Source: a virus
IMG/VR virus record: IMGVR_UViG_3300018080_000306
Coordinates: 1 to 40,678 of that record
DNA: 40,678 nucleotides
Reading direction: 5' to 3' (one strand)
Positions within the stretch are counted from its first letter, which is position 1. The number at the start of each line of letters is the position of its first letter. A program made the position numbers and the translations under genes. Shown here piece by piece: positions 7,294 through 40,404 of this stretch. A model generated the notes under the pieces. That model saw nothing but the letters and a program-made list of their open reading frames with translations. It was not told the origin of the DNA and ran no database searches.

Positions 7294-8049
7294 CTAAAAC
7301 GCTGCGTCTGCGCCGGATTTTTTGGCGATCTCTGCAAGTTCTGCGACTGCCTGCCAGTCCGATTCCGCGAAGTCGTTCATCTCGACGTTGTTGTCCTCTT
7401 CGTACTGTCCGACATACATATTCCAGACATCGATGGGTGGTTCGCCGGCGAATGTGTCGCACCAGAATTGCCAGCATTCATCGTATGTCGTCGCCGCGAC
7501 TTTCGGTTCGGATTTGGATGTAGGCTTCTTGGGTGCTTCCGGTGGTTTGCGCTTCGGGCCTTTCCTGGGTGTCTTGGACGGCTTCGGGGGCGGTGGCGCT
7601 TTCACCTTCGGCAGGTCTCCTGCTTTTGCCAGGATCGCTGCGATTTGTTCCTCGATGGCCTTCGCTGTCCGCCCGGAGATCTCGTTCCGGCTGCTTGCGA
7701 AATACCAGTTTTCGAAGTCACCATTATGAACACATTCCAATGCGAGACCTTCGTCGTAAAATTTGTCCGAGAATTCGATTCCTTCGCGCGTAACTTTTCC
7801 GTTCCATCCGTAACCTTTCAGGCGCTTGATACTGGATTCGAATTTCTCATTCGACGGGTCAAGGAAGGCGCTGACCTTAATGACGACCGGTTCATCCAGT
7901 TGGATGTAATCGCCGTTCTCGAACCGGTCCGTAACCGTGAATTTGAATTCGAGCCTCGTCCCTTGACTGTCCTTCAATGCGAGAGGTACAATTGCCTCTT
8001 CGTCTTCTGATTTCCTCATCGGGAATCCGTGGTACTTGCCTGGTTTCAT
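7294..8049 (-). CDS. unknown replication-operon protein with basic proline-rich linker
   Basis: 251 residues not recognised as a named family. Residues 1-130 look like a compact alpha/beta or OB-like domain (LEFKFTVTDRFENGDYIQL). Residues 150-185 are a basic proline/lysine linker (PPPPKPSKTPRKGPKRKPPE). The end is an acidic tail with many W, D and E. A folded domain, flexible linker and acidic tip is the general design of single-stranded DNA-binding proteins, and the gene lies directly after a Sak4-type recombinase, where phages often carry an SSB or DUF669 protein. That role is inference. The start has AAAGGA at 8 bases. Confidence 0.6.
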   Translation of the reverse strand: MKPGKYHGFPMRKSEDEEAIVPLALKDSQGTRLEFKFTVTDRFENGDYIQLDEPVVIKVSAFLDPSNEKFESSIKRLKGYGWNGKVTREGIEFSDKFYDEGLALECVHNGDFENWYFASSRNEISGRTAKAIEEQIAAILAKAGDLPKVKAPPPPKPSKTPRKGPKRKPPEAPKKPTSKSEPKVAATTYDECWQFWCDTFAGEPPIDVWNMYVGQYEEDNNVEMNDFAESDWQAVAELAEIAKKSGADAAF

Positions 8050-29904: not shown

Positions 29905-31998
29905 TTACGCTTCGCCTTTGAACTTGACGCTGCCGTGGTAATCCTGCGCCGCGACGCCGAAGTCGATGTACCCCGCCCAACCGGCGCCGAGAATATTCGC
30001 CGGCGTCTGAACGCGATAAATGGTCGGCGTCTTGACGCCATTGAGATACACCACATCGAAGGCGGAAACCATCTTCGGGTCCGCCCACAGATACCAGGCT
30101 TTCGCCGAATATCCGGTGTAATCCGCGTCGCTGATATGCGGCGGAGAAACGACCGTGAATTTGCCCCTGAACGGGTTCTCGGCGCCAATCGTCGCGTCTT
30201 CGCCGGTGATGAGCATCGCATCGCGTGCGAATTTATTCGCAGAGGTTTCGAGTTCGACCGGGACGACCAGGTACTTCGGCTTGATATTGATCAGCCGTTT
30301 GTCCTTCGCCTTCGTTGTCGGACCGACCTTCATCTTCCGGAAATAGGTCATGATATCCGACAGGCTGCTGAAACCGAAGGCTGTGTCCGCGCCGGCCTTA
30401 TAGTTACCATTGCCGGTGGTGTAATCGGACGAACCGAGAACCGCCTCGAAGAATTTTTCATCGACGAGCGTCGCGGCGCCGAGCCCCATGTCCCTGGGGA
30501 GACTCAGGAAAGCATTCAGATCGTCATTAATGATATCCTTCCGGGTCAAGACGATAATCTGGCCATACATCTCTGCCTGGTTTGTATATTTCTGCTCTCC
30601 GAGTTTCCCGTGTTTCAGTTCGCCGCCATCCGTAACGGGATTCCATGCGCCGGTTCCGAGCAGACGGTGTCTCGTCGCCTGCTTGAAGTCTTTCGTCTGG
30701 CTGGCGCTCCCGAGAATATCGGCGTATTTATCGACACTTCCATACGCCTGCAGCATCGTCTTGTTGATCGCATCCTCGAAGATGCCGGGCAGCGATACGA
30801 CGGTAACGGCCGCCTCGATGAACGCCTTCCCGTTTCCGAACGTCCTCGGCGGACGCTGGCCATCCGCGATCATCGCCTCGGCGATAATTTCGCGGATCGA
30901 GATCCCGCTCATCGTGTACGCGGCTTCAACAGTCTGTTCGCCGTAATCCTTCAGGATCGTCTTTTCCTCGATGCCGGCCGTCATACAGGCTGCGGCTGCG
31001 ATCTGTTTGATCCGGCTTTCGCGATCCGGCGTCTGGTGCGCAATCACGTTGAACGATTCGGGCCGATTTTTCAGTTTCGCCTTGAGAACCAGATTCTCCA
31101 CGACAACGGGTTCGCTCCCGTTCTCAATCGCGTTCGCCGCGATATCAGCGAATTCCGTCCCACAGATTTTGTTGATCTGCTGGATTCGACGCATCTCGCT
31201 GACATGCGCCGCGCGAATATCGCCCAGGTCAACGGACGCGGCTACAAGGGCCGGTTCCGGGGTCTGAGTCGATTCACCATTCGCGCGAACGTCAGGCACC
31301 GGCGTCGGCTCCGGTGTCGCTGTTTCCGACTGCCAGGCCGCTTTGAGCGTTGCGAGTTGTTCGTCGCTCAGGTCTGCCTGCACAAAACCTTTTTCTTTGA
31401 GCCATGCTTCGAATCCCATAATGAATTCCTTTCCCTGGTGTTGATGACTGGCTGCGATTTTTGTCCGTGTATCCTTATCCGCCCCAACGGCGGTTACTGA
31501 TGTTTCTCTCACTAAAAATTCGCGCGCGATATAGGTTCCCTTCGGAACACTGATACCGTTCACGACAGTTTTTCCTTCGTGACCCTCCTCAAGACGAAGG
31601 ATTTTCCCGCCGACAGACGCCTGCCAGGGGAATTGGTTTTTTGACATTCCGACGACGCGGTCCGCGTTCGGCGCATAACCATAACCAGAAAATACACCAT
31701 TCAGAATAATCGAGTTTTTCTGCCGTTCGGCAGTTTCCGCGTGGGCAATCGGGTCATTGATATCGTGTCCGTACAGGATCGCGAACGGCACTTCGGCTTT
31801 GACACCATCCAAATCGATAATGATATCTCCATACCACTGCGAGATAATCCCGCCTGTATAGGCTGTCATTTTGAATGTCGGGAGTTTCGGCTTTTCGCCA
31901 TTCTCTTTTGCCTCGATGATTTCTTCGGCTGTGATATTGTCCGGGTTATTGACATCGATCAACGTCGACAGATTGAATTTAATATATTCTGGTCTCAT
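29905..31998 (-). CDS. fused prohead protease and Mu gpT-like major capsid protein
   Basis: 697 residues. The N-terminal part (1-190) looks like a Mu-type prohead protease: YGHDINDPIAHAE with candidate H78, WQASVGG with candidate S128, and a closing segment RETSVTAVGADKDTR. A linker rich in P, E and T (about 225-245) leads to the capsid part, with PRDMGLGAATLVDEKFFEAV, PKYLVVPVELETSANKF and WYLWADPKMVSAFDVVYLNG typical of Mu gpT-like head subunits. A scaffold-like helical region lies between. In Mu these are separate genes. The ATG overlaps the portal stop (TAATG). Confidence 0.88.
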   Translation of the reverse strand: MRPEYIKFNLSTLIDVNNPDNITAEEIIEAKENGEKPKLPTFKMTAYTGGIISQWYGDIIIDLDGVKAEVPFAILYGHDINDPIAHAETAERQKNSIILNGVFSGYGYAPNADRVVGMSKNQFPWQASVGGKILRLEEGHEGKTVVNGISVPKGTYIAREFLVRETSVTAVGADKDTRTKIAASHQHQGKEFIMGFEAWLKEKGFVQADLSDEQLATLKAAWQSETATPEPTPVPDVRANGESTQTPEPALVAASVDLGDIRAAHVSEMRRIQQINKICGTEFADIAANAIENGSEPVVVENLVLKAKLKNRPESFNVIAHQTPDRESRIKQIAAAACMTAGIEEKTILKDYGEQTVEAAYTMSGISIREIIAEAMIADGQRPPRTFGNGKAFIEAAVTVVSLPGIFEDAINKTMLQAYGSVDKYADILGSASQTKDFKQATRHRLLGTGAWNPVTDGGELKHGKLGEQKYTNQAEMYGQIIVLTRKDIINDDLNAFLSLPRDMGLGAATLVDEKFFEAVLGSSDYTTGNGNYKAGADTAFGFSSLSDIMTYFRKMKVGPTTKAKDKRLINIKPKYLVVPVELETSANKFARDAMLITGEDATIGAENPFRGKFTVVSPPHISDADYTGYSAKAWYLWADPKMVSAFDVVYLNGVKTPTIYRVQTPANILGAGWAGYIDFGVAAQDYHGSVKFKGEA

Positions 31999-34121: not shown

Positions 34122-36428
34122 CTACAACCATGCGCTTCGCGCGCGTCTTCGTTCTTGTCGTTCACGTCTGCGTTCTTCCAGTCTCTTCTTGCGTTCGTTC
34201 GTCATCCGGCGTTTATATCGGCGGTTCTTTTTATCGTCGTCATATTCCGGAAGAACGATCCCCTGTTCCGACGCGGCAACGGCGTTCCCGACGAGACAGT
34301 CCCACCAATGATTGTCTCGATGCGGAAGTTTTGCCCAGGAATAAACGACGCGTCCATAACCTTCTGTTTTCGTCGCGTACTCACTGACAAGGTGTTCCGC
34401 AAGTAATCTGTGCTGTCGCGGATCGCTTCCGAAAATTGTGACTCCGCCTGGATCGCCGGCCGGCGTCAACAGCCTGGCTTTCGTGAATGATTTCCAGAAA
34501 TTCACATCCGATAATACATGCGGGATTGTCCGCTGCTTCCTGACGGCCGCGATGCGCCAGTTCAGTCCGATCCGATCCCCGCGTTGCTTCCTATATTCCG
34601 ACATCGGCCGCTTCTTCGCGTCTATGCCTGTTCCTATGTACGGCATAACGATTCCTGGTGTATGCGTGCGTCTGCAGAACGTCCTCACTGTCGGGTTCAC
34701 AAGTCCGTCTGCGGCGTCCAGGAACAGTCTGCTAATATCCATCCTCTGTCCGTCTTCGCGTTTCCAATCCTTATAAATCAGATCATGGCAAACCTTTTCA
34801 AGGCCTGCCATCCATTTTGCCTCGTTCGATGTCGCTTTCGTCAGAACCGACATCGTTATATTCGCGGTTCGATTAGAAAAATAACTGACTTTCTGCTTCG
34901 GCGTCGTCCCATAATCGATAATATAGCCAGTGAAATTTTCTTCCCAGGCGACAACCATCCAGTATAAAATCCGGTGTTGAATATCGACGAATGCAGTCAG
35001 TTTCGTCGCGGTCGCTGGTGCGATTCCGCGCTTCAAATTATTATACCGGTTCAGGATCGCTCTGACGGTCAACTGGTCTCCGTCTTCCGACATGTTGATC
35101 GGTTCGTTCTGAAACTCGCTCTGGAATATTTCGATATCCTCGAATTTCACTTCCATCGCTGATTGGATCGCCGAGATTTCGCCGTCGTTCCATCGCTCCT
35201 TCCAGGCTACAACAGCGCCTTCATCCATCGCCGCCATATTCTCTCGATAAAATTCTGTCGCCTCACGAATGTCTCCATAGTTCTCCAGACTCTGGACACG
35301 GACCTTCTCGTATTCATTCCACAAATCGGTATTCGTCGGAAACTCATATAACGTCTTCATCCGTTCGCCTTGCCATTCCGGATACTGTTCCCGGTCGAGC
35401 ATCATCTCCGAGAGATCACCTCGCTCGATCACTGTGCATGGCATATAGGCTGATATTTTAACTCCTGGCGCGCTCATTCCTTTCGTCGCCGCGAGAATTA
35501 TCTTTCGGCGTTTCTCGCACTGCTCCCAGGACCGTGCGCTTTGGTCCGTCTGTGGATCATCAAAGACCAGCAGGTCCGGCCGGCGCCCCTTCCGGCGCGC
35601 GCCGCGCTTGCTTCCGTCCAGGCCGATTACGTCTATCATTCCGCCGCCAGCAAGGCTTCCTGGTATCCTGGCAAACGTAACCTGGTTTGTCGCCCACTCT
35701 AATTTAGTCCGTTCACCGTGATAAAGTTGAGTATGCGCTCGCTGTGTAACTCCGCCAAGTGATCGAACCGGCATACATATCTCCGGGAAGTCTTCAAAGA
35801 GCAATTCATTCGTCTCGATTTCCTCTTTGATCTCGTCCAGGAATTGTTCAGCCATCGGGAGCGTCGATGCGTATGCGATGATATATTTTTTCTTGCCTCG
35901 AAATATCATCCACATAATTATTCGCTGGCATAATGCCGTCTTCCCCGATCCGCGTGGCATTGCGATTGCAAATTGACCGCCTTTCTCCGCGACGCGGATC
36001 ATTTTGTTGATCACGATCTCGTGATCGCTGCTAAACGGCAGATAAAACACGTCCGGGAAGTAAGTCTGGCAGAAATATCTAAAATCGTTCATTGCTGTCT
36101 CTCGACGTTTCGAGTCTTTTATCTCCGGTATTTCCCCGATATTCCGTTGTGATATTGATTCCGCGCGCCGGCGTTCTGCGACCATGTCGCGGTGTTCCAG
36201 ATAATTCCGTCCGCGCTGCTCATGAACTTGTCGATTATGTCTGATAATTTTTAGCCTGGTTGTCAACCAGGCTGCATATTTAATCAAATCGACCTTGTTA
36301 TTTCGCGCGACATGGTATCCGGACGCGTCCAGGTGGTCTCGTAATATTCGGCGTTTCAGAACCGGTCCGCGATCAGTCGAGTTTATAAGTTTCACGACTT
36401 CGGACGCGTTGAATTTCAGACCGACCAT
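34122..36428 (-). CDS. terminase large subunit with N-terminal Nu1-like module
   Basis: 768 residues from the ATG with GGAGAG upstream (a further 19-residue extension lies inside the preceding gene). The ATPase shows Walker A AMPRGSGKT at 156-164 and Walker B LLVFDD at 286-291; the RNase H-like nuclease shows AFVDIQ with D482, LFLDAADG with D571, and a late acidic/aromatic NHWWDCL. The first 60 residues (FNASEVVKLINST...KVDLIKYAAWL) are an added module shared with the three genes before it. The C-terminus is extremely basic. Motor of DNA packaging and cutter of concatemers. Confidence 0.93.
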   Translation of the reverse strand: MVGLKFNASEVVKLINSTDRGPVLKRRILRDHLDASGYHVARNNKVDLIKYAAWLTTRLKIIRHNRQVHEQRGRNYLEHRDMVAERRRAESISQRNIGEIPEIKDSKRRETAMNDFRYFCQTYFPDVFYLPFSSDHEIVINKMIRVAEKGGQFAIAMPRGSGKTALCQRIIMWMIFRGKKKYIIAYASTLPMAEQFLDEIKEEIETNELLFEDFPEICMPVRSLGGVTQRAHTQLYHGERTKLEWATNQVTFARIPGSLAGGGMIDVIGLDGSKRGARRKGRRPDLLVFDDPQTDQSARSWEQCEKRRKIILAATKGMSAPGVKISAYMPCTVIERGDLSEMMLDREQYPEWQGERMKTLYEFPTNTDLWNEYEKVRVQSLENYGDIREATEFYRENMAAMDEGAVVAWKERWNDGEISAIQSAMEVKFEDIEIFQSEFQNEPINMSEDGDQLTVRAILNRYNNLKRGIAPATATKLTAFVDIQHRILYWMVVAWEENFTGYIIDYGTTPKQKVSYFSNRTANITMSVLTKATSNEAKWMAGLEKVCHDLIYKDWKREDGQRMDISRLFLDAADGLVNPTVRTFCRRTHTPGIVMPYIGTGIDAKKRPMSEYRKQRGDRIGLNWRIAAVRKQRTIPHVLSDVNFWKSFTKARLLTPAGDPGGVTIFGSDPRQHRLLAEHLVSEYATKTEGYGRVVYSWAKLPHRDNHWWDCLVGNAVAASEQGIVLPEYDDDKKNRRYKRRMTNERKKRLEERRRERQERRRARSAWL

Positions 36429-36655
36429 TTGATTTTCTCTCCGCGTTCGAGTTTTGTTTTTTCGATCAGCCATGCCAGAAAACATACGAGGTTCACGGTT
36501 CCGTCGTCGCGGATCGGGAAGTCATCCTCGAATATATATCCCTCGAATTCCTCACGAGTGACATCGAGATTCTTGGTATTATTAAGAATCTCGAATAACT
36601 GGTCAGGTTCAAAATTTATATTCGGCTTTTTCTTTACCTTTTTTTTCGGCGCCAC
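36416..36655 (-). CDS. Nu1-like module protein, stand-alone
   Basis: 79 residues with GTG as start (GGAG 6 bases before). A lysine-rich head (APKKKVKKK) is followed by FEPDQLFEILNNT...FPIRDDGTVNLVCFLAWL, the same layout as in the two genes before it and at the N-terminus of the large terminase, whose ATG lies inside the end of this gene. The module resembles the winged-helix DNA-binding domain of lambda Nu1. Probably part of the packaging complex or its regulation. Confidence 0.65.
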   Translation of the reverse strand: MAPKKKVKKKPNINFEPDQLFEILNNTKNLDVTREEFEGYIFEDDFPIRDDGTVNLVCFLAWLIEKTKLERGEKIKWSV

Positions 36656-36667
36656 ACGTATCTCCGT

Positions 36668-37270
36668 TTATGCGAGTAAATCGTTGATATCCAATTCGCC
36701 GTCACCGATCTCCTTCGGAATTAATATTCCGAGTTTCAATGCATAATTATTCATCGCGTCGACGACGCGTAGCGCGCCGGAATAATTTTTATTCTTCATC
36801 ATTTCATTATAGATTTTCCTGTAGACCTCAAAACTCCAACCGGTCAGTGTTTCGCGGTCCGGAATATTTTTATTATTCCTGATACGTTCCCAGGCTTCAC
36901 CGAGAATTTCCGCGTTATCATCGGTTTTCCATTTCTCATTCAACGTCTCGACAATCACCTTCGTCGAACGTCCTTCAAGTATCCAGTCATAACATTTTTC
37001 CAGCGCCTGGTCTCTGCTCTCAATCACCAAGTCCGATTCGGCACCTATCGACGCTTGACCTGCAGCCTTCGCTTTGTTTTCCAATTCTCCTGCCAGCCAT
37101 GCCGAATATGCCCATACATCAATTTTATTTTCGTCTCCGATTCTGAATCCGGCTCGGTCCTGCTGTTCTCGTAACCTGGCGCGCGTCATTGAACTTCCGA
37201 TTTCAGTCGAATTTATCAACCGAATCAGGTAGCCAGGTTTCAGGTATCGTCCTTTTTCTAGCTGTATCAT
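36668..37270 (-). CDS. probable terminase small subunit
   Basis: 200 residues. Residues 8-68 carry the Nu1-like module (LKPGYLIRLINST...DENKIDVWAYSAWL). The rest is helical: a central region QALEKCYDWILEGRSTKVIV and a C-terminal YSGALRVVDAMNNYALKLGI, the pattern of terminase small subunits where the last helices form the ring. Of the three small genes it is the only one with such a body, so it is the best candidate for DNA recognition at packaging start. ATG overlaps the previous TGA (ATGA). Confidence 0.72.
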   Translation of the reverse strand: MIQLEKGRYLKPGYLIRLINSTEIGSSMTRARLREQQDRAGFRIGDENKIDVWAYSAWLAGELENKAKAAGQASIGAESDLVIESRDQALEKCYDWILEGRSTKVIVETLNEKWKTDDNAEILGEAWERIRNNKNIPDRETLTGWSFEVYRKIYNEMMKNKNYSGALRVVDAMNNYALKLGILIPKEIGDGELDINDLLA

Positions 37271-37482
37271 GCATCAAACTCCACGAGTTTCAGATTCAAC
37301 CAGGCCATAAGATTCAGGATATTTATCTTCCCTTCGATGTCGACCGGCAGTCCTTCCTCTATCCATATCCGCACATCGTCCGGGAGAACTTTCGCAACTT
37401 GCGTCGAAGTCAGCAGATCGCTTACCTCTTCAGGGGTCAATTGCGATGGATTAATGGTCTTCTTGCTCACATTATCGCTCAT
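37267..37482 (-). CDS. Nu1-like module protein, stand-alone
   Basis: 71 residues. LTPEEVSDLLTST...VRIWIEEGLPVDIEGKINIL and NLMAWL closely follow the order of the lambda Nu1 winged-helix domain (helix, W-x-x-x-GMPV, wing, IKW). First of four consecutive genes with this module. Its ATG is the last of three tandem copies of a 20-base start-region repeat. Confidence 0.68.
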   Translation of the reverse strand: MSDNVSKKTINPSQLTPEEVSDLLTSTQVAKVLPDDVRIWIEEGLPVDIEGKINILNLMAWLNLKLVEFDA

Positions 37483-37524
37483 TTTTACACATTATTCCTC
37501 ATTTTTACACATTATTCCTCATTT
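37468..37524 (-). repeat. tandem 20-base repeat covering a gene start
   Basis: On the minus strand AATGAGGAATAATGTGTAAA occurs twice in a row and then, with changes, as AATGAGCGATAATGTGAGCA, the true start of the Nu1-like gene. The two upstream copies encode MRNNV and a stop; the upstream methyltransferase ends within this array. Confidence 0.8.
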
Positions 37525-38924
37525 TGGTCCTGGTCCTGGTCCCGCAAAGGCTCGAATTCAGCGACCATTTCGGCAGTTTCGCCGGTGAATTCTTCCCATC
37601 TTTTGATGATTAAGTCGCAATAAGCGGGTTCATATTCGATACAATAACAGCATCTTCCGGTCTGTTCGCATCCAATCAGCGTTGATCCGCTTCCCGCGAA
37701 CGGATCGAAGACTACCCATCCGGGCCGGCTGCTGTATTGGATCGCTCGGACGGCGAGTTCCACAGGCTTTTCGGTAAGATGGATCATCTTCGACTGCGCG
37801 ACTTTTTTGACGATCCAGTAGTCGCTCGGTATTTTGTCCCTGGGGTCGAAATCAAAAACCGCTATATGCTTTTCCGGCCCTAATTCGATGACTTCGACAT
37901 CAGGTTTATCCTCTTCGGCCGTTTCAAAACAGTCGATGATATTAAATGCGCCGAAGAATTTATGGGCTGCGCCTTCCTTCCATCCGTAGAATGCAAACTC
38001 GCAGTCGCTCATAAAATCCCGCCTGGTCAACACAGGGAATAATTTTCTCCATGTGATTATACTCTGAAATCTCAATTTATTTTTTTTGAGATACATCGGA
38101 TAGCGATGCAGGTTCGTGTATCCCCCCCAAATATAGAAGGCTGCTCCGGACCGAAGGATCGATGCGATATTCCTAAACCATACATCAACAATCTCGTCAT
38201 ACGCTTCGCCTTTGATATCGTCGCCGTGCAGCGCCATATCTTTCGCGATCATCTTCGTCCGGTGAACGCCGGCGCCATCAAGCGTTTTTGAATACGAATT
38301 GCCTGATGCTATAGCCAGCGCGCTCCGGCTCTTGACGGCGACTCCATACGGCGGATCGGTGTTCACCATATCCGCATCCGCTCCGTCGAACAAGGCGTAT
38401 ATCTGATCCATGTCGCTGCTATCTCCGCACAACAATCTATGGTTCCCTAATTTAAACAATTGTCCGCGCTTGGTTGTCGGCGGATCAATCGGCTCCGGCT
38501 GGACATCAGGTGGGATTCTCCCGTTCCGAATCTGTTCTTTTCGGCCGCGTTCGAATTCCTCGACTGTGAATCCGGTTATCTCTAAATCGAGTCCTTCATT
38601 CTCAAGAGCATTGATCTCGATTTCGAGTTTCTCGAAATCCCATTCGGCGATTTCGCCGGTCTTATTGTCCGCGATCCGGTAGGCTTTCGCCTTTTCATCA
38701 CTCAAATCGGCGATATGAACCGGAACAGTCTCAAGACCGAGTTCCTTCGCTGCCAGGTATCGAGTATGACCGACGATGATTATTCCGGTTTTATCAACAA
38801 CAATCGGCTGCCTGAATCCGAATTCCTGGATACTTTTCGCAACTTTTTCGACTGCTTTCTGGTTGAACCTGGGGTTATTCTCGTAGGGCGCGATCTCGTC
38901 CAGGCTTTTAGTTTCGATTTTCAA
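37512..38924 (-). CDS. ParB-domain DNA N6-adenine/N4-cytosine methyltransferase
   Basis: 470 residues with TTG start (GGAG before it). Residues 1-120 are a ParB/Srx-like N-terminal domain (PYENNPRFNQKAVEKVAKSI, GIIIVGHTRYLAAKELGL, YRIADNKTGEIAEWDFE). The methyltransferase has DPPY at 190-193 and FDPFAGSGST at 406-415, the order of the beta class. Such fusions are common in phages and usually act as orphan methyltransferases. No cognate restriction enzyme is present. It probably protects or marks phage DNA. Confidence 0.9.
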   Translation of the reverse strand: MKIETKSLDEIAPYENNPRFNQKAVEKVAKSIQEFGFRQPIVVDKTGIIIVGHTRYLAAKELGLETVPVHIADLSDEKAKAYRIADNKTGEIAEWDFEKLEIEINALENEGLDLEITGFTVEEFERGRKEQIRNGRIPPDVQPEPIDPPTTKRGQLFKLGNHRLLCGDSSDMDQIYALFDGADADMVNTDPPYGVAVKSRSALAIASGNSYSKTLDGAGVHRTKMIAKDMALHGDDIKGEAYDEIVDVWFRNIASILRSGAAFYIWGGYTNLHRYPMYLKKNKLRFQSIITWRKLFPVLTRRDFMSDCEFAFYGWKEGAAHKFFGAFNIIDCFETAEEDKPDVEVIELGPEKHIAVFDFDPRDKIPSDYWIVKKVAQSKMIHLTEKPVELAVRAIQYSSRPGWVVFDPFAGSGSTLIGCEQTGRCCYCIEYEPAYCDLIIKRWEEFTGETAEMVAEFEPLRDQDQDQNEE

Positions 38925-38944
38925 TGGTTATTCTCCTGTTTCGT

Positions 38945-39700
38945 TTATTGTTCCGGTGTAGGCCATTCCCGGATTTCCAAATCCAGGGGCGTCGGTTCTC
39001 GGCCGCCCATCTGTTTGAAGAAGAATGGAATCTCGTTATCGCCGCAGTAATCCCGGATGTCTCTCGCCCAGGATGCGTCCATCGGGCGCGCGCCGGGGCC
39101 GGTCTCGCCGCCGACAATGATCCAGTTTATAAATGTCATCCATATAGTGCTATGCCACCTCTTTATGTATGCTTCTATATCACGGAAATATAAAATCGAC
39201 TCCAGTAGTGGTTCAAAACTAATAAACCTAACCGGCGCTTCCTGGACACGCCTCTGGTCATGAAATGCGCCAAGACGATTATGGAATGTCCCTGTATCCT
39301 CTGCCGTAAATCCGAACCAGATATTGTCCGGAGTCGGTATATTCGGGAAAATGTCATCGATGTTATTCGGTCGTTTCGTCAGAAAAATATAGGTATGATC
39401 CCTATAGATTTGAGTCACATCGACAATCTCTTCCATCCATTCCTTGCCGACATTGTAATGGAAGGCGTCCCCCATACTGCATACGAATATCCGCGATGGA
39501 CGTTTGACTTCGCTCGGTTCATCAATTCTCTTTCTGTGAAACGTGACTTCCATCGGGTTATCGGCCGGATATCCGAACCGTCCGCGCATCCGATTTGCCA
39601 GGCGCCTGGCGTAGCAGTTGTCACATCCGCGACTGATCGGCTGACATCCGGTGATCGGGTTCCATGTGTAGTCGCACCATTCGATTCCTGTTTTGTTCAT
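38945..39700 (-). CDS. DUF5131 (phage Gp37/Gp68) family protein
   Basis: 251 residues. The family hallmarks are seen in order: TGIEWCDYTWNPITGC, SRGCDNCYARRLANRM, RIFVCSMGDAFH, YIFLTKRP, IWFGFTAED, VRFISFEPLLE, WIIVGGETGPGARPM and IPFFFKQMGG. The cysteine cluster (C-x6-C-x2-C) suggests a bound metal or iron-sulphur cluster; a radical-type activity has been suggested but not proven to my knowledge. It lies between two DNA methyltransferases, so DNA or tRNA modification is a fair guess. A 30-base copy of its 5' end occurs upstream of the next gene. Confidence 0.88.
   Translation of the reverse strand: MNKTGIEWCDYTWNPITGCQPISRGCDNCYARRLANRMRGRFGYPADNPMEVTFHRKRIDEPSEVKRPSRIFVCSMGDAFHYNVGKEWMEEIVDVTQIYRDHTYIFLTKRPNNIDDIFPNIPTPDNIWFGFTAEDTGTFHNRLGAFHDQRRVQEAPVRFISFEPLLESILYFRDIEAYIKRWHSTIWMTFINWIIVGGETGPGARPMDASWARDIRDYCGDNEIPFFFKQMGGREPTPLDLEIREWPTPEQ
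39671..39700 (-). repeat. 5' end of DUF5131 gene, copy 1 of a 30-base direct repeat
   Basis: These bases are the start of the intact gene. They match the segment at 40497-40526 in 27 of 30 positions, same strand. Confidence 0.8.
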
Positions 39701-40404
39701 GATTTTTCTCCGTTTTCTGATTTATATGTCTTATCCCACTGATCGACTACAGACGCGCACCATTCACCCATCGCACGAGGTACACCGTTTCCGAGCCAAT
39801 GGACACGTAATTGATTTGAATATCGTTCATGAGACCGATAAGTAATTTTAGCGAGTTCAGGAAAACCCTGAAGGTCTGCGGCTTCTTTTGATTTCAAAAT
39901 ATGATCAAATGACCTTTTCGATATTCGATTTCCACTCGATGAAATTACAGAATATTCCGGCTGCCCTGGGCGGTTCGATGGAAGCATTGATTTTGCAAGC
40001 ATCGCCAAACTGAACGGCCAGAACCAGAATAAACGAACACGTTTTGTTTTACCTCCGCAGTCCCAGTCGCGTATTTTTATAGAAATCGCATCAGTAAATT
40101 TAATATCACTTTTCCACGCGGAACGGACATTCTCCATAATCCACCAGCGCGGTTGAGCAGCCTTGACCACTCGGAGAAATTCCGGAATACCGTCCCAGGG
40201 ATTCCCCTGTCCACGTCGAGCAGATGAGTATTTCTGACAAGGCGGACCGCCGATTATTCCGTCGAACCGTCCCGCCGGCGGAGAAGGCCAGCCGACAATA
40301 TCTTGTCCCAGGCATTTTTCCGGACCGCGTACAACGCACCATCCGCGCGCTTCAAATGGACGCCCGAAAAGGTCGATGCCGGGGAAGAGGGATAGAATCA
40401 ACAA
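39697..40404 (-). CDS. C5-cytosine DNA methyltransferase, compact phage type
   Basis: 235 residues with TTG start and GGAG 6 bases before it. Motif I LSLFPGIDL, motif IV GGPPCQ with catalytic C56, motif VI MENV at 90-93, motif VIII-like RVRLFWFW and motif X GNGVP at 205-209 are all present. It is much shorter than typical enzymes (over 320 residues), with a reduced target-recognition region, as in other phage orphan forms. It overlaps both the 42-residue ORF before it and the DUF5131 gene after it. Confidence 0.9.
   Translation of the reverse strand: MLILSLFPGIDLFGRPFEARGWCVVRGPEKCLGQDIVGWPSPPAGRFDGIIGGPPCQKYSSARRGQGNPWDGIPEFLRVVKAAQPRWWIMENVRSAWKSDIKFTDAISIKIRDWDCGGKTKRVRLFWFWPFSLAMLAKSMLPSNRPGQPEYSVISSSGNRISKRSFDHILKSKEAADLQGFPELAKITYRSHERYSNQLRVHWLGNGVPRAMGEWCASVVDQWDKTYKSENGEKS

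Follow-up and report, generated by a model that had tools for sequence, protein, structure and literature searches.

The stretch analysed here (the window; 40,678 nt, IMG/VR record IMGVR_UViG_3300018080_000306) carries on its minus strand a terminase block in the order g1, g2, g3 and large terminase gene (TerL), followed by portal and capsid/protease genes. An earlier note had read parts of these four genes as copies of one module, and all four stretches were found on this strand at the positions it gave. The first gene, g1 (37267..37482), encodes 71 aa, nearly all taken up by a module of what we call the S type, with Met as the x of an L-x-A-W motif in helix 3. Its stop overlaps the start of g2 by 4 nt (37267..37270). 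The second gene, g2 (36668..37270; 200 aa), has an N-terminal module of a second type, T (37085..37249; approximately residues 8-62), and an orphan, all-helical C-terminal part (36668..37045), with helices predicted at residues 86-98, 103-113, 119-132, 147-159 and 163-179. A further S-type module forms g3 (36416..36655; 79 aa), directly before TerL (34122..36428), which encodes a GpA-like large terminase. The longest TerL ORF (787 aa) begins at 36485, and translation probably starts at an internal ATG at 36428 (residue 20 of that ORF), giving 768 aa. GGAG lies upstream of this ATG, and a start there overlaps the g3 stop by 13 nt (36416..36428); relatives mostly overlap by 8-17 nt at the same place, most commonly by 11 nt. 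The TerL T module (36249..36413) covers residues 25-79 of the 787-aa ORF, or about residues 5-60 of the 768-aa protein.

Three tandem 20-nt repeats (100/90/80%; 37468-37527) run up to the region of the g1 start codon, and an ATG and a GAG-like stretch are present in each copy. Upstream of the terminase block (37512-40404) lie a ParB-N/DNA methylase fusion, a DUF5131 gene and a C5-methylase-like gene. At 29905-31998, a head protease and a major capsid protein are seemingly fused in one 697-aa ORF (phrog_4523, PF25209).

The window TerL contains a GpA nuclease and a P-loop ATPase (PF20454, E 1.9e-23; phrog_38, 1.3e-37). By motor and nuclease it belongs with the GpA-type large terminases (PF20454; phrog_38, phrog_15), from which it differs in its extra N-terminal T module. 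Its Walker P-loop reads P-R-G-S-G-K, and R-G-x-G-K is invariant in alignment A1. At least 565 related stretches are present in IMG/VR. In the best cultured relatives, which include Mu-like phages, D3112 and RcapMu, the similarity is confined to the ATPase part and stays below 30% identity (~29% in the best matches listed), and no cultured-phage record covers more than about half of the window protein. As a separate observation, the TerL ORF of one related locus (L401, 233-3670) is 1146 aa long and seems to carry an intein immediately behind the Walker A motif (GSGK-ALALDTPMATPSGW...).

Two subtypes of one module family

Similarity between the four modules was assessed by Smith-Waterman alignment against 2000 shuffles. 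It was strongest between the g2 N-terminus and TerL (z 18.8) and between g1 and g3 (z 8.2), with lower values for g3-TerL (z 7.1), g2 N-terminus-g3 (z 6.5), g1-TerL (z 5.5) and g1-g2 N-terminus (z 3.7). The copies thus split into S (g1 and g3, whole tiny proteins) and T (the N-termini of g2 and TerL). When the family profiles of the two types were compared, they matched each other with 97.6% probability (E 4.7e-12, 59 columns), and all four window modules therefore belong to one family. Between them, the alignments above shuffled background and the profile match bear out the proposal of one homologous module in four consecutive genes. Neither type reached the cut-off for any Pfam family, and no described PHROG or NCBIfam family was matched through the module by any of the four window proteins. 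The types differ in mean net charge, which is acidic for S (-1.7) but basic for T (+4.7), and T has a basic helix 2 that is conserved.

The suggestion that the copies arose by tandem duplication holds in part. The S-T-S-T order fits a doubling of an S+T unit, but the T modules of g2 and TerL are ~35% identical and do not group together, so that a duplication within the lineage is unproven; trees of the S and T modules are too short for dating it.

Gene layouts in related loci

In 287 of 313 scanned loci, a single S ORF immediately precedes a T-bearing TerL. This corrects the premise that a large terminase normally has no such domain, which is wrong in this group. The S-T-S-T layout was found in the window only. 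T occurred by itself in five loci, all at a contig end, and S by itself in none. Some loci were fetched repeatedly, and the paired S/T set comprises 164 distinct sequence pairs. Both modules were missing from the remaining 20 loci, about 11 of which are cut by the contig end. By our own reading of the sequences, L009 and L010 retain an apparent decayed T and L176 a very diverged T-like start, while L007, L008, L012, L022, L144 and L190 have upstream sequence from which S and T are both absent. In L022, an excisionase/HTH-like gene (7549-7761) stands before TerL (phrog_66, E 1.3e-6; phrog_57 small terminase, E 9e-4).

A later scan brought 73 more loci with S and a T-bearing TerL, part of them on contigs seen before, and three other layouts. 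Two S genes stand ahead of the T-bearing TerL in L379, and in L401 the S position is occupied by a diverged module that scored as T. In L340 and L341, the gene after S joins a T module to a phrog_57 small terminase (E 5e-17), and a GpA TerL (PF05876, E 7e-41) comes next. The L340 GpA TerL ORF gave no T or TerL-family match in the scan.

This last arrangement bears on g2, which likewise joins a T module to ~120 residues of helices (predicted with moderate confidence) and lies upstream of TerL with g3 in between. Because of this place before TerL and the L340 precedent, we infer that g2 is probably a small terminase, so that g1-g2 would be an S gene with a T-bearing small terminase. The C-terminal part of g2 matches neither phrog_57 nor any other family or fold, and searches of phages, viral contigs and 12 planctomycete genomes returned no convincing relatives. 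Two candidates were set aside: L332, listed as matching g2 residues 3-167, is an ordinary T-bearing TerL, and an upstream ORF in L190 that looked small-terminase-like by eye showed no relation to g2 by BLAST.

Viruses with S and a T-bearing TerL form a large, uncultured and poorly characterised group, and many are phages or prophages that belong to planctomycetes. Of 294 genomes of the planctomycete phylum to which a Gemmatales MAG (G001) belongs, 26 contain T modules. Up to nine module matches within single genomes (G225, G001) suggest several prophages or remnants in each. A bacterial-chromosome remnant (L120, 678-5050) keeps an S gene and a T module severed from TerL, with a large serine recombinase on one side and a tyrosine recombinase on the other. 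In one virus contig of 107313 bp (G003, with L049), TerL genes lie at three places (21.5, 36.3 and 96.1 kb), perhaps in adjacent prophages.

The pairing of small and large terminase subunits is known. As in lambda gpNu1/gpA (PF07471; Nu1 wHTH), a small gene here precedes and overlaps that of a GpA-type large terminase, but S is a single domain of ~60 residues that lacks the C-terminal helical bundle of Nu1. The small partner in lambda binds at the N-terminus of TerL (PMC10810279); in the window group, by contrast, the N-terminal domain of TerL is homologous to its own small partner. In P22, TerL residues 1-58 are a minimal TerS-binding domain (PMC9611059), and TerS forms a ring and binds TerL through its C-terminal tail, whereas the partner here is a single domain, paralogous to that of TerL. 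In the open-access literature we found no TerL described as sharing a homologous domain with its small partner; judged against that literature, paralogous partners that co-evolve at the level of residues, and the presence of two such pairs at one locus, appear to be new.

Co-evolution of S and T modules

S and T were paired by locus and the joint alignment was analysed by mean-field DCA, in which the top two couplings were both inter-chain (S53-T55 and S17-T52). In plain DCA, coupling to some TerL motor segments reached similar raw scores, and only a tree-corrected test separated them; given this high background, a tree-based test with controls was used instead, on a TerL motor tree of 142 tips from which the T module was left out. 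Along this tree, size class changed 14 times at S53 and 16 times at T55. The tips comprise 91 with small S53 and large T55, 38 with large S53 and small T55, 13 with both small and none with both large, and T55 is Ala or Gly in all 38 tips where S53 is large. For this pair, the Pagel dependent model was favoured over the independent one with a likelihood ratio (LR) of 52.5 (p ~1e-10). Among the motor columns, 126 have a size trait that can be compared, and LR did not exceed 16.5 in these; in a first set of other TerL traits it stayed at or below 14.5, a second coding of T55 itself excepted; T55 against all other S positions gave at most 21.5 (S42, the next best). Two further pairs stood above background, namely S34-T62 (LR 30.2; Asp-Arg in 99 of 142 tips, hydrophobic or aromatic pairs elsewhere) and S17-T52 (LR 26.3; Val/Ile with Phe, Leu with Leu). 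In a held-out set, large-large combinations occurred in 0 of 58 pairs, against 8.0 expected.

S and T, although encoded by different genes, thus co-evolve like contact partners, as lock and key. S53 and T55 are the equivalent position of the domain (the x of the helix-3 motif Y-x-A-W-L), which is what one would expect of residues close to the axis of a pseudo-two-fold dimer, and their codons lie ~200 nt apart, so that shared DNA cannot explain the coupling. We infer that S and T touch, forming a pseudo-symmetric S·T heterodimer at the N-terminal end of the terminase. The S53/T55 rule is obeyed by the L340 pair (Thr/Ala) and by both window pairs, with Met in g1 and Ser in g2, and Leu in g3 and Ala in TerL. 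At the second coupled pair, the window has Trp/Leu in g1/g2 and Tyr/Leu in g3/TerL. As the key position is large in both window S modules and small in both T modules, the rule is neutral as to which S pairs with which T.

Proposed heterodimer, its role and its fold

Taking the computed homology of the four copies, the S-T gene order, the joint absence and the co-evolution together, we consider, with a probability of roughly 70%, that the four copies make up two cognate pairs within a single domain family, in which an S-T pseudo-two-fold heterodimer gives a terminase subunit a two-chain head. S is the tiny free-standing protein and T the same domain fixed at the N-terminus of the subunit. Each S gene directly precedes its T-bearing gene, usually overlapping the start of the latter, so that both chains would be made together. 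The two would pack via helix 3 into a pseudo-two-fold heterodimer on the T-bearing subunit, which is TerL in most of these viruses; in the window, g3 would form a head with the T module of TerL, and g1 another with that of g2. The suggestion of a hetero-oligomeric packaging complex made in the earlier note gains backing from the S-T co-evolution.

As to what such a head may do, recognition of packaging-site DNA by the basic helix 2 of T, with S as obligate partner, seems the most likely role, though judged from charge and held at slightly under even odds. Subunit docking is our more tentative second choice; TerL N-termini are small-terminase docking sites in P22 and lambda (PMC9611059, PMC10810279). 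Since T is on the small terminase in L340, with a TerL that lacks T, the S-T pair cannot be solely a small-to-large docking device. We give even odds to a broader view of the paralogue heterodimer as a portable head, carried by TerL in hundreds of viruses, by the small terminase in others and by both in the window, where one packaging complex would have two different paralogous heads.

If S and T were instead halves of a dock between small and large terminase, the T heads of the two subunits would be bridged by S and the four window copies would form the TerS-TerL joint. Such a dock would agree with the binding site at the TerL N-terminus in P22 and lambda, with T on both g2 and TerL in the window and with the S-T co-evolution, but we think it unlikely given that the common layout has no separate T-bearing small terminase beside TerL and that L340 has T only on its small terminase.

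Two other alternatives concern the fold. An AlphaFold2 (AF2) model of g3, built with 62 relatives (pLDDT 82), has three helices (residues 17-26, 34-43 and 56-70) and a small bridge between residues 14-15 and 54-55, and the g2 T module shows the same helix order (residues 12-20, 30-44 and 52-78; pLDDT 85-95 for residues 11-60). The first reading of the locus saw four Nu1-like winged-helix domains, each recognising packaging DNA, derived by tandem duplication and fusion. The predicted strand-helix-helix-loop-strand-helix order is compatible with a MerR/excisionase-like domain, two members have weak HTH_17 matches, helix 2 of T is basic, and HTH/MerR names are frequent among non-significant BFVD matches of g3 (E above 2). 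Against this, hhalign comparison with the Nu1 profile gave probabilities of 3.7% (S) and 0.7% (T), no Pfam match rose above cut-off, neither Nu1 nor a wHTH appeared among the Foldseek/PDB matches listed, and S is acidic on average. Nu1 homology is thus not supported, and that version as a whole appears improbable. No Foldseek match at E <= 0.001 was obtained in PDB (for g3 or g2) or in BFVD (for g3), and searching PDB sequences with the profiles of the two types gave nothing significant for fold assignment.

EF-hand loops carry acidic Ca2+ ligands at positions 1, 3, 5 and 12. A calcium-free relative of this fold, serving purely for protein-protein contact, would account for the EF-hand proteins that are the best PDB matches of g3 and recur among the weak matches of g2, and for the S loop N-x-D-G-x-I-N, which is similar to an EF/dockerin loop. 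Yet none of these matches is significant (E 0.11-0.6 for g3, TM ~0.5), and the family consensus P-x-N-x-D-G-x-I-N-L-x-H has no ligands, its residues being non-acidic, at positions 1 and 12, and we judge this reading just as improbable as the Nu1-like one. We disfavour most of all the view that the S-T covariation reflects shared ancestry and linkage without contact: S and T are adjacent and inherited together and the raw DCA background is high, but the tree-corrected signal at one residue pair far exceeds that of the 126 motor columns with the same linkage, the coupled residues occupy equivalent places in the structure and complement each other in size, and the held-out pairs agree.

Little is known about how small and large terminase subunits hold together, since their complexes are mostly transient and the small subunits diverge fast (PMC9611059). 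For the S-T heterodimer, a large family gives a sequence-level prediction of the interface down to residue pairs, testable by simple co-expression, and the four-module locus is a natural test of specific pairing between paralogous heads. The S-T family also accounts for a TerL N-terminal domain undescribed by Pfam and PHROGs, and provides a first name and a lead to function for the tiny genes before TerL in hundreds of unannotated environmental viruses.
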